A stretch of 56,481 nucleotides of DNA, taken from an uncultured Lachnospiraceae bacterium. GTDB lineage: Bacteria; Bacillota; Clostridia; Lachnospirales; Lachnospiraceae. The first letter of the stretch is position 1. Each line of letters starts with the position of its first letter. The notes under the pieces were generated by a model. The model worked only from the letters and a program-made list of their open reading frames with translations, had not been told where the DNA came from and searched no databases. Positions 12,669-15,496 of this stretch are shown piece by piece. The stretch lies in assembly GCA_902779575.1 (NCBI GenBank), contig CACZBW010000023.1, forward strand, positions 1-56,481. Reading direction: 5' to 3'. A program made the position numbers and the translations under genes.

Positions 12669-12853
12669 GTTCTGCTGAACGTCCGCCGGAAGCTTTATGG
12701 AAACACAGATGGCAGGAGGCCTGATGTTCGGAGAGCCGTGAATAGTGACTCCATAGAACATTTGACAGTGTTTGTATATGGCGCGGGCTCTTTTTTTCTG
12801 ATAAGATATTTCTGCCAGAGATGGTATTGATAATAATCCGGGGAGTATGGGAT

Positions 12854-13753
12854 ATGAGTAAGGTTGCAATTCTGACAGACAGCAACAGCGGAATTACGCA
12901 GGCAGCAGGAAAAGAACTCGGGGTCTCCGTCCTGCCGATGCCTTTTTATATCAATGACGAGCTGTTCTATGAGGATATTACCCTCTCGCAGGAACAGTTT
13001 TATGAACATCTGGAGGCGGACGCCGAGATCCACACCTCCATGCCGGTTGTGGGCGACGTCCTGGACCGCTGGAAGGAGCTGCTTGAGACGCATGACGAGG
13101 TAGTCTATATTCCGATGTCCAGCGGCCTGTCTTCTTCCTGCATCACCGCAAAGACGCTGGCGGAGGATTTCGACGGACGGGTTCAGGTTGTTGACAACCA
13201 GAGGATTTCCGTCACGCAGCGCCAGTCTGTCCTGGACGCCCAGGCGCTTGCAGCACAGGGCTGGGGAGCCGCTCAGATCCGGGAATATCTGGAGAAAACA
13301 AAATTCGAATCCAGCATCTATATCTATGTTCCTTCGCTGAAATATCTGCGGAAGGGAGGCCGCGTAACAGCCGCAGCCGCAGCCATGGGCACGCTTCTAA
13401 GGATTAAGCCGGTCCTGCAGATCCAGGGGGAGAAGCTGGACGCGTACGCCAAGTGCAGGACGATGAAGATGTCCAAGAGCGTGATGCTTAAGGCGATTGA
13501 GGATGACATCCGCGACCGTTTTCATCTGGAAAATGATCTGGACAAGGTCTGGATCTCCGGTGCGTATTCCGGCCTGATGCGGGATGAGGTCACGGAGTGG
13601 ACGGAGGAGATCGCCCGGATTTATCCGGGAAAGAAGATTGTGATGCAGCCGCTGTCCCTGTCTATCTCCTGTCATACCGGCCCGGGATGCCTTGCGGTTA
13701 CCTGTACAAAGAAGATTCCCGAGAATCCGGATGAGAGCGCCTGCCGCTGGTGA
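12854..13753 (+). CDS. DegV family fatty-acid-binding protein
   Basis: 299 residues. The start MSKVAILTDSNSGIT, the IPMSSGLSSSC segment, YVPSLKYLRKGGRV and the late HTGPG motif identify the DegV (EDD) fold. DegV proteins bind a fatty acid in a pocket between two domains; in Staphylococcus and Streptococcus the related FakB subunits present it to the kinase FakA for phosphorylation and use in phospholipid synthesis. No FakA gene lies nearby, so a FakB role is inference. The ATG at 12854 is chosen over the upstream GTG-type frame start because the DegV fold begins there and GGGGAG lies upstream. The gene is followed by the hip palindrome array; its second palindrome could double as a transcription end. 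Confidence 0.92.
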   Translation: MSKVAILTDSNSGITQAAGKELGVSVLPMPFYINDELFYEDITLSQEQFYEHLEADAEIHTSMPVVGDVLDRWKELLETHDEVVYIPMSSGLSSSCITAKTLAEDFDGRVQVVDNQRISVTQRQSVLDAQALAAQGWGAAQIREYLEKTKFESSIYIYVPSLKYLRKGGRVTAAAAAMGTLLRIKPVLQIQGEKLDAYAKCRTMKMSKSVMLKAIEDDIRDRFHLENDLDKVWISGAYSGLMRDEVTEWTEEIARIYPGKKIVMQPLSLSISCHTGPGCLAVTCTKKIPENPDESACRW

Positions 13754-13796
13754 TCTTCCGCGAAAGAGGCGGAAGCAGCAGATTGCCTGATCATAA

Positions 13797-13825
13797 TTGA
13801 CATAGCCGAACGGCTATATTATGAT
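13797..13825 (+). promoter_or_regulatory. Promoter of the hipBA-like operon with operator in the spacer
   Basis: A perfect -35 TTGACA (13797-13802), a spacer of exactly 17 bases and a -10 TATGAT (13820-13825). The spacer is almost entirely the first palindrome, ATAGCCG-AA-CGGCTAT (13802-13817), so a dimeric repressor bound there would exclude RNA polymerase. The natural candidate repressor is the HTH protein encoded at 13995-14210. A second -10-like TATACT (13896-13901) lies just beyond the third palindrome, without a good -35. Confidence 0.8.
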
Positions 13826-13893
13826 AAATATGTGAAAAGATAGCCGAACGGCTATTTTTTCACATCTGCGTCACAATATAGCCGCTCGGCTTT
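13802..13893 (+). repeat. Three palindromic operator-like sites at exact 38-bp spacing
   Basis: Copies: 13802-13817 and 13840-13855 are identical ATAGCCG-AA-CGGCTAT; 13878-13893 is ATAGCCG-CT-CGGCTTT with one arm mismatch. Centres lie at 13809.5, 13847.5 and 13885.5, so both steps are 38 bases. The middle copy extends to a near-perfect 36-base palindrome (13830-13865, arms of 17 with one G-T pair) whose right arm ends in a T6 run, so it could also terminate degV transcripts. The arrangement resembles the multiple-operator autoregulation known for E. coli hipBA, although the site sequence differs. Confidence 0.85.
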
Positions 13894-13959
13894 ATTATAC
13901 TGTGGTAACAGCGCCGGAATTATTCTTATATGCTTTTCCTGCAGGAGGGAAGGCCGGTT

Positions 13960-13998
13960 ATGAGGGTGCGGCGCAGGGAGAGGAGAACAGCGGGATGA
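13960..13998 (+). CDS. Possible 12-residue leader peptide before the HTH gene
   Basis: ATG at 13960 preceded by GCAGGAGGG (13941-13949) encodes MRVRRRERRTAG and stops with the TGA at 13996-13998, which overlaps the ATG of the HTH gene in ATGA. The stronger Shine-Dalgarno belongs to this mini-frame, so translation of the antitoxin might be coupled to it. It could also be fortuitous. Confidence 0.3.
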   Translation: MRVRRRERRTAG

Positions 13999-14210
13999 AG
14001 ATAACCAGCTCTGCCGCATTTGGGAAAGCAATACAGAAACGCCGGAAGGATCTGAAATATACCCAGGAGTATATTTCAGAGGTAACGGGTCTGAGCGCGA
14101 GCTTTATATCCAATCTGGAAAACGGGAAAAAGACGACGGAGCTTGAAAAAGCGATCATGCTTGCGAATGTTCTCGGCCTGGATATCGATCTCAGTGTCCG
14201 GGGACAGTGA
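13995..14210 (+). CDS. XRE-family HTH protein, HipB-like antitoxin
   Basis: 71 residues, essentially one helix-turn-helix domain: FGKAIQKRRKDLKYTQEYISEVTGLSASFISNLENGKK is an XRE/Cro fold with the recognition helix around SASFISNLE. The start codon ATG at 13995 is preceded by GGAG repeats; the open frame extends upstream to a GTG at 13902 without a ribosome site and across a palindrome, so the short form is preferred. It lies 11 bases before a HipA-like kinase gene. By family knowledge HipB both neutralises HipA and represses the operon through palindromic operators; the three palindromes immediately upstream fit this. The small size (E. coli HipB is somewhat longer) means the C-terminal HipA-contact tail may be short. 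Confidence 0.88.
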   Translation: MKITSSAAFGKAIQKRRKDLKYTQEYISEVTGLSASFISNLENGKKTTELEKAIMLANVLGLDIDLSVRGQ

Positions 14211-14221
14211 CGGAGAAATAT

Positions 14222-15496
14222 ATGAGTGATCTGAATGTATCGGTTGAACGCTGCGGGAAGATGCTTCCGGCAGGGCAGCTGCTGGAAAGCGGAAGAGGCC
14301 GGGCCCGCTTCCGTTATCTGGATTCCTACCTGGAAATGGAAGGCGCGGCTCCGATCTCGGTGAGCCTGCCGCTTCAGGAGCAGGCATTTGATGAGGACCG
14401 GACAAAAACCTTTTTTGAAGGGCTCCTTCCGGAAGGGTTTACCCGAAGAACCGTTGCCGCCGGACTGAAGGTGCAGGAAAATGACTATCTTTCCATCCTC
14501 GCGGCGCTGGGCAGCGAATGTCTCGGCGCCCTTCAGGTGACGGACGGCGCGCTTTCTCCGGAGGAGGGAAGCTATGAGCTTCTGGATGACGCGCGTGTGA
14601 AGGAGCTTGCCGGGGAAGGCGCTACGGAGGCTGTAAATATCGTTGTGCAGTGTCATCTCTCCCTCACCGGCGCCTCCGGTAAAGTCGGTCTGTATTATGA
14701 ACCGGATTCCGGAAGATGGTATCTGCCCAAGGGAGCGGCAGCGAGCACACATATCGTGAAACAGAGCCATGTGAGACTCAGGAATATCGTCGTGAATGAG
14801 CAGCTGGCTCTCCGGACGGCGAAAAAGCTCGGTATTGAGACGCCCGACAGCTTTATTATAAATATAGGCGGCGGTTCCGACGGAGAGGTACTGTTCGCGA
14901 CAGCGCGCTACGATCGGATAATCGCTGATGAAGCAGACCGGATCAGCGGTCTTCGGAGACCTTACCGTCTGCATCAGGAAGATTTTGCCCAGGCAATGGG
15001 GATTCCTGCAGGCGAGAAATATGAGAATCATCGGGCCGACTATCTGAGCGGGGTCTTTCAGATCATCCGGGCGAAGACGGCCCGGCCCCTTCAGGATATG
15101 CTGAAGATGTGGGAATACCTGGTGTATGATTATATCATCGGGAATTCCGATAACCATATCAAGAACCTGTCGCTGCTGTATTCGGAGGATTTGAGGAATA
15201 TCCGGCTGGCGCCCCTGTATGATGTGATCAGTACGGTTGTCTACGACGGAAGTACAAGAGAAATGTCCGTTTCAATTGACGGAAAGTATTCCATTGATGA
15301 GATTACGAGGGAATCTTTTGCGAACCAGGCGGAGAAGGTCCATCTTGGAAAAAAGGCGGCGATGAAGCGCTTTGACCGTCTGCAGAACGGATTCGAAAAG
15401 GCGCTGAATGAAGCGGCTTATGAATTAAAGGAAGAGGGATTTACGAACGCGGAAACGATCCGTGACGCTGTGCTTGCGAATCGCCGGATGAGATAG
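14222..15496 (+). CDS. HipA-like serine/threonine protein kinase (toxin)
   Basis: 424 residues, HipA length. The N-terminal 'couple_hipA' domain (about 5-110, FRYLDSYL, FFEGLLPEG) is followed by the kinase core: glycine-rich LTGASGK (149-154), STHIVK with the ATP-binding lysine K180, catalytic loop IGNSDNHIKN with D310, and the metal-binding LYDVIST with D334. These line up with K181, D309 and D332 of E. coli HipA. Known HipA phosphorylates glutamyl-tRNA synthetase at its ATP-binding loop, blocking translation and inducing persistence; other homologues use other targets, so the substrate here is inference. The core residues look intact, so the kinase should be active. The ATG at 14222 has GGAG at 7 bases; an in-frame GTG at 14207 overlaps the HTH stop as an alternative. 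Confidence 0.93.
   Translation: MSDLNVSVERCGKMLPAGQLLESGRGRARFRYLDSYLEMEGAAPISVSLPLQEQAFDEDRTKTFFEGLLPEGFTRRTVAAGLKVQENDYLSILAALGSECLGALQVTDGALSPEEGSYELLDDARVKELAGEGATEAVNIVVQCHLSLTGASGKVGLYYEPDSGRWYLPKGAAASTHIVKQSHVRLRNIVVNEQLALRTAKKLGIETPDSFIINIGGGSDGEVLFATARYDRIIADEADRISGLRRPYRLHQEDFAQAMGIPAGEKYENHRADYLSGVFQIIRAKTARPLQDMLKMWEYLVYDYIIGNSDNHIKNLSLLYSEDLRNIRLAPLYDVISTVVYDGSTREMSVSIDGKYSIDEITRESFANQAEKVHLGKKAAMKRFDRLQNGFEKALNEAAYELKEEGFTNAETIRDAVLANRRMR

Follow-up and report, generated by a model that had tools for sequence, protein, structure and literature searches.

Three copies of a short palindrome lie at even spacing across the promoter and leader of a two-gene operon in DNA from an uncultured Lachnospiraceae bacterium, and the locus raises the question of what these copies do and why they are placed so regularly. 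The window (the whole stretch of 56,481 nucleotides that was analysed) had been read in an initial annotation, made from its letters, as carrying a HipBA-like operon at this place. HipBA is a classic persistence module, and for models in which HipA is kept inactive on operator DNA the main basis is structures from E. coli and Shewanella. The features of the locus are as follows.

12821-13753: degV-like gene, preceding hipB-hipA
13797-13802, + strand: -35 box TTGACA of the predicted hipBA promoter
13802-13817, unstranded: putative operator 1, ATAGCCGAACGGCTAT, centre 13809.5, within the promoter spacer
13820-13825, + strand: -10 box TATGAT, after a 17-bp spacer (13803-13819)
13840-13855, unstranded: putative operator 2, ATAGCCGAACGGCTAT, identical to operator 1, centre 13847.5, 38 bp downstream
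13878-13893, unstranded: putative operator 3, ATAGCCGCTCGGCTTT, a near-copy, centre 13885.5, 38 bp beyond operator 2
13995-14210, + strand: hipB-like gene for an Xre/HTH antitoxin and repressor (predicted), 71 aa; HTH_3, 1.1e-12
14207-15496, + strand: hipA-like gene for a predicted kinase, 429 aa; HipA_C, 1.7e-43, and Couple_hipA, 6.8e-23

The hipB and hipA genes

The identification as a HipBA-like operon is upheld by the HTH_3, HipA_C and Couple_hipA matches, the latter two both exceeding the Pfam cut-offs, and by the match of the window HipA to E. coli HipA (E 4.4e-28 for the best chain). The small Xre/HTH gene lies directly before hipA, whose GTG start at 14207 overlaps the hipB stop; translation may instead begin at ATG 14222 (residue 6), and full-length HipA family matches start at residues 2–11. 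The window HipA aligns at the DxHxKN and YD stretches and at the serine of the E. coli SVAG loop, and we presume the catalytic residues to be among these. The window HipB is 27% identical to E. coli HipB, and its match to the couple_hipB model TIGR03070 (2.1e-14, 53.2 bits) falls below the curated cut-off of 71.65. E. coli HipB has a C-terminal tail with a final tryptophan, whereas the window HipB ends in VRGQ and lacks such a tail; passages of two papers present the entry of this tryptophan into a HipA pocket as an E. coli-type trait and not as a universal requirement of hipBA systems (PMC3376134, PMC10627512). The gene pair is, as judged from its sequence, a type II hipBA toxin-antitoxin operon, with toxicity, neutralization and kinase activity predicted.

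Three palindromes over the hipBA promoter

The sites themselves have several striking features. First, two identical copies and a near-copy occur at exactly the centres initially proposed, with both steps 38 bp. Second, operator 1 fills the 17-base spacer between TTGACA and TATGAT, as had been noted, and it also touches the -35 box, the last base of which is its own first base. Third, the claim that operator 2 expands into a 36-base palindrome followed by a T6 run stands as to its extent (13830-13865) and the T-run; the pairing is imperfect (16/18 positions, with an A/A centre and one G/T position unpaired), and the T-run is not conserved among relatives. Fourth, the sequence ATAGCCG-NN-CGGCTAT differs from the E. 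coli consensus TATCC-N8-GGATA, as the initial annotation had it, and sites of this type track hipB across relatives. Finally, the three copies lie over the operon's own promoter, an arrangement expected of HipB autoregulation.

A search of the window permitting up to three mismatches gave six strand-wise matches, every one of them from the three operators, while shuffled windows gave a mean of 0.30 and at most 2, and six were reached in none of 100. The assembly (3,546,291 bases, 95.3% complete) was scanned with ATAGCCG-NN-CGGCTAT at up to two mismatches, and of the 13 places found (12 with a reversed control pattern) only the three window operators have zero or one mismatch. Since such sites are found nowhere else in the assembly, the operators appear dedicated to the hipBA operon. 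At 10.5 bp per turn a 38-bp step amounts to about 3.6 turns of the helix, so that neighbouring operators lie on different faces of it.

A 22-codon ORF is present between the array and hipB (13930-13998), its TGA overlapping the hipB ATG in the form ATGA, and within it a 12-codon stretch rich in Arg begins at an ATG (13960) that is preceded by GGAGG. This ORF is possibly a leader peptide coupled to hipB, or else present by chance.

Conservation of the array among relatives

A search at 1e-30 found HipA relatives in 28 of 299 family genomes, one of the 28 being that of the window. The species genomes gave 74 loci, many of them titled Lachnospiraceae or Butyrivibrio. The loci examined number 103 (the window and L006-L107). 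Three were dropped for want of a HipB match and two for HipA identity below 45%, leaving 98, and removal of nine near-duplicates left 89, among which close relatives remain, so that these are not 89 independent cases. A symmetric 18-bp motif with the consensus TTTAGCCGTACGGCTAAA, refined on the same 89 upstream regions in which it was then counted, has 257 sites at score 8 in these regions; the corresponding counts are three in shuffled sequence, one in hipA coding sequence and one further upstream. Most loci have three sites (64), with two in 12 loci, four in 10, and seven, one and none in a single locus each.

The expectation that homologous loci would share both the sites and their spacing is largely borne out, except that 38 bp is the minor form of the step and 39 bp the usual one. 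Among 176 adjacent steps, 168 are 38–40 bp (27 of 38, 126 of 39 and 15 of 40), the remaining eight being 24 (twice), 68, 88, 103, 133, 186 and 288; one locus, L007, is an exception within the family in that its first step is 24. At least one step of 36–42 bp is present in 87 of the 89 loci and at least two in 72. The two loci without one are both counted in the 89: at L052 the contig starts inside hipB, and its sole 'site' is an artefact of a locus that has no upstream DNA, while L098 is a truncated hipA match. In another phylum, a hipBA locus on a Treponema saccharophilum plasmid has steps of 38 and 39. L099 has three more motif sites upstream of its main array, about 296–374 bp before hipB and with steps of 38 and 39; one of the three is weak.

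Placement relative to promoter and gene

In 78 of the 89 loci a -35 box begins 12.5 bp before a site centre; it reads TTGACA in 20 and TTGACT in 56, and the spacer is 18 bp in 67, 17 bp in 10 and 16 bp in one. Where the spacer is 17 bp the next step is 38 in six loci, 39 in three and 24 in one, and where it is 18 bp the next step is 38 in five, 39 in 56 and 40 in six. The -35 box thus tends to fix the place of site 1 and the -10 box that of site 2, as one-base changes of the spacer would give. Counted from the start of hipB, the last site lies at -17.5 to -212.5 (sd 31, 87 loci), and in the window it is 109.5 bp before the gene. The step mostly varies by a single base and the distance to the gene widely, which argues that it is the step that is constrained.

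Classes of step at distant hipA loci

More distant hipA loci were scanned with no given motif, for two alike palindromic 24-bp windows 18–100 bp apart at a score of at least 7. The 211 loci (234 minus short stretches and near-duplicates) come unevenly from a few classes and plasmids; E. coli is outside them, and L032, a fragmentary hipA belonging to the window's family, is included. Repeated palindromes were found in 59 of the 211 (L032 not among them), with 0.2 expected from shuffles. No pair at score 7 was found in the other 152, so any rule about the step is demonstrated only for loci at which this strict scan detects sites. Steps were then listed on a relaxed criterion of 70% match near each seed, and those up to 60 bp, longer ones being excluded from the tally, fall with the added copies into 26–29 bp (39 steps), 37–41 bp (63) and 48–51 bp (12), with two, of 19 and 45, outside. 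Mixed arrays occur, such as 29, 38, 29 at L147 and 29, 40, 29 at L200. The letters of the operator vary by hip group, with TTATGCG-NN-CGCATAA or TGTGCNCG types as examples.

A group of 24 distant rows, all from the Coriobacteriia-type genomes searched, falls with the window's family on a HipA tree. These have other operators, such as TTATGCG-NN-CGCATAA, and their steps are nonetheless 39 (42 steps), 38 (five) and 40 (one), with strays of 109 and 277; the step persists beyond change in the operator sequence. On a 72-row HipA tree the step class requires nine changes, compared with a mean of 25.6 and a minimum of 22 in 200 label shuffles, where the labels of 12 family rows and of E. coli were set by hand and the tree is a quick one, with 26 of 69 inner branches open, many weak and some rows long. 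Removing the 12 family rows again gives nine changes (shuffle mean 24.8, minimum 20), as does removing L052, which was labelled without an observed step. The classes also cluster modulo 10–12 bp (Rayleigh R is 0.68 for a period of 10.5 and 0.80 for one of 12, against a null 99.9% value of 0.38), a significance that is overstated because clades are not independent, and 10.5 is not the best-fitting period.

These observations tilt us, on balance, towards a geometric code among HipBA systems, with classes of 26–29, 37–41 and 48–51 bp lying about one turn apart and outlasting the operator sequence within clades. If so, the operator array would template a HipB-HipA oligomer of defined form on the DNA, and the step could be read from sequence as a signature of the contact between neighbouring complexes.

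Two other sets of loci add to this variety. The window's own genome contains a second, split Hip module (L127, G000:C65:1775-2452) composed of an HTH gene, a 112-aa HipS-like ORF and a 321-aa HipT-like ORF, and here the palindrome TAATACCCGAAAGGGTATAA is repeated with a 41-bp step (score 5 in the first scan). An Asticcacaulis genome (G877, that of L107) has 12 HipA_C matches (loci L135, L140 and L142-L151), and several of these loci have differing operator palindromes and steps.

A model for the array

We consider it very probable that the palindromes function as operators, with binding proposed from their sequence and placement, and probable that the array as a whole constitutes the HipB autoregulatory operators of the hipBA operon with a geometric requirement on the step; repression, cooperativity and bridging are the conjectural parts of this, as is the nucleoprotein loop or bend that the initial annotation had the 38-bp spacing set. 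HipB dimers would bind the three palindromes of type TAGCCG-NN-CGGCTA. Because operator 1 occupies the promoter spacer, bound HipB or HipB2A2 would exclude RNA polymerase, and operators 2 and 3, in the transcribed leader, would extend the complex; both roles are suggested by analogy with E. coli HipB, for which cooperative binding to four operators is reported (PMC3376134). The 38–39 bp step would then be a geometric requirement of adjacent operator-bound complexes, and its near-constancy while the operator letters change suggests that the spacing itself may be what the DNA-bound proteins need. HipA subunits flanking each HipB dimer could contact their neighbours, giving cooperative binding and keeping HipA on the DNA. 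Work cited in PMC6581861 gives the N-terminal subdomain of HipA a part in dimerization when DNA is bound. Such HipA-HipA bridging is the cause of the step that we favour, with even confidence for and against.

The same operators could be bound with HipB and DNA alone setting the step, through bending or DNA shape, and HipA only modulating it, an explanation that we regard as possible though rather unlikely. It accords with the 70 degree bend that E. coli HipA-HipB2-HipA is reported to impose on its operator (PMC3376134) and with an account of Legionella, where HipB needs neither HipS nor HipT to bind any one of three evenly spaced operators, a behaviour that the authors set against the cooperativity of E. 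coli HipB (PMC10653801). At a 39-bp step, however, about 20 bp separate the 18-bp sites, a gap that on geometric grounds small HipB dimers would find hard to span by touching. The step class also tracks the HipA clade; as co-evolution of HipB with HipA is to be expected, the pattern fits a step set by either protein.

Loci with hipB and without a full HipA bear on the choice between HipA and HipB. From a longer list of matches, 11 hipB loci that lack a full HipA or are an extra copy were inspected. In six the DNA retrieved around hipB contains no match to HipA, nor do their genomes have one at 1e-30, and these six retain arrays, with steps of 39, 39, 39 (L372), 39, 39 (L373 and L377), 39 (L385), 39 (L398) and 38, 38 (L399). 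HipA bridging as the sole cause of the step is weakened by these loci; if their loss of HipA is not recent, contact through HipA is dispensable for it. HipA remnants accompany a single site at L393 and L395 and no site at L400, which fits either a HipA-set or a HipB-set step. At L386 an array with steps of 39 and 39 stands beside a 265-aa hipA ORF, parts of which match residues 4-145 and 311-423 of the window HipA, the stretch between being absent. The extra copy of hipB at L380, about 3 kb from a complete hipBA, has one 40-bp step. Other genes begin within a few bases 3′ of the HipA-less hipB at L372/L401 and L377/L402; judged by eye from their translations, these resemble a peptide deformylase (L372) and a ThiF/TcdA-type enzyme (L377).

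With HipA bridging retained as the favoured cause, the remaining explanations fare much worse. The array could be the remnant of a tandem duplication, its equal steps inherited and not selected, as this would give equal steps within a locus and two of the window sites are identical; we consider it very unlikely, given that the DNA between the window sites differs (by eye) and that similar steps, in three classes, occur at distant loci with differing operators. Marginally less likely again is a role at the RNA level, with the palindromes forming attenuator or terminator hairpins that belong to the leader or to the degV-like gene upstream. Transcription would cover sites 2 and 3, and a T6 run follows site 2, but site 1 lies upstream of the expected transcription start, and runs of T5 or longer are rare across the loci, following the first site in 0/88, the second in 19/87 and the third in 7/75 (sites numbered as found, so that a few loci with a stray upstream match are shifted by one). 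A terminator scan of 13700-14250 found none on the + strand and one on the - strand (13731-13718), and the four Rfam matches with E <1 are all far below the gathering scores; on the T-run counts, the terminator scan and the Rfam scores we reject the hairpin reading. Chance is rejected by the window shuffles, the assembly scan, the family motif controls and the distant-scan shuffles, and phasing on one helical face by a step of 38–39 bp that is not a whole number of turns. Nor does the array appear to be a general trait of Xre-regulated toxin-antitoxin operons, since among 30 HigB/Gp49 toxin loci only one has a pair at a score of at least 7, at 56 bp, compared with 59 of the 211 hipA loci. This control is small and drawn from one class, and it covered 900 bases ahead of the locus middle, where the match was assumed to lie, and 500 beyond it, a stretch different from that of the hipA scan.

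Relation to known hip systems

Autoregulation of hipBA through multiple operators is already known in E. coli, as are evenly spaced operators in Legionella HipBST. E. coli K-12 resembles the window in that several operators serve the promoter of a hipB-hipA operon, that one of them comes immediately after a TTGACT box and that the middle step, as measured separately with the published consensus, is 39 bp; it differs in having four TATCC-N8-GGATA sites at steps of 28, 39 and 28, where the window has three at 38. As described in PMC10653801, Legionella pneumophila HipBST resembles the window in its three evenly spaced operators upstream of hipB, one of which overlaps the predicted promoter, and differs in being tripartite, with 53-bp gaps between operators of another sequence. 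Other sampled hipBA and hipBST-like loci likewise have repeated palindromes (the 59 of 211 above), with other sequences and with steps in the three classes. The passages on operator terms in a HipA phylogeny paper mention operators only in general (PMC8262856). We found no report of the TAGCCG-type array, the 39-bp step or the step classes in the literature searched, which by itself does not prove their absence, and a rule for the step over hipBA loci appears to be new. A step conserved amid diverging operators provides natural spacing variants, and the HipA-less hipB loci that keep or lose the array offer natural tests of which of the two proteins, HipA or HipB, sets the step. The step is also a simple mark by which hipBA promoters can be found and HipB proteins paired with their operators.
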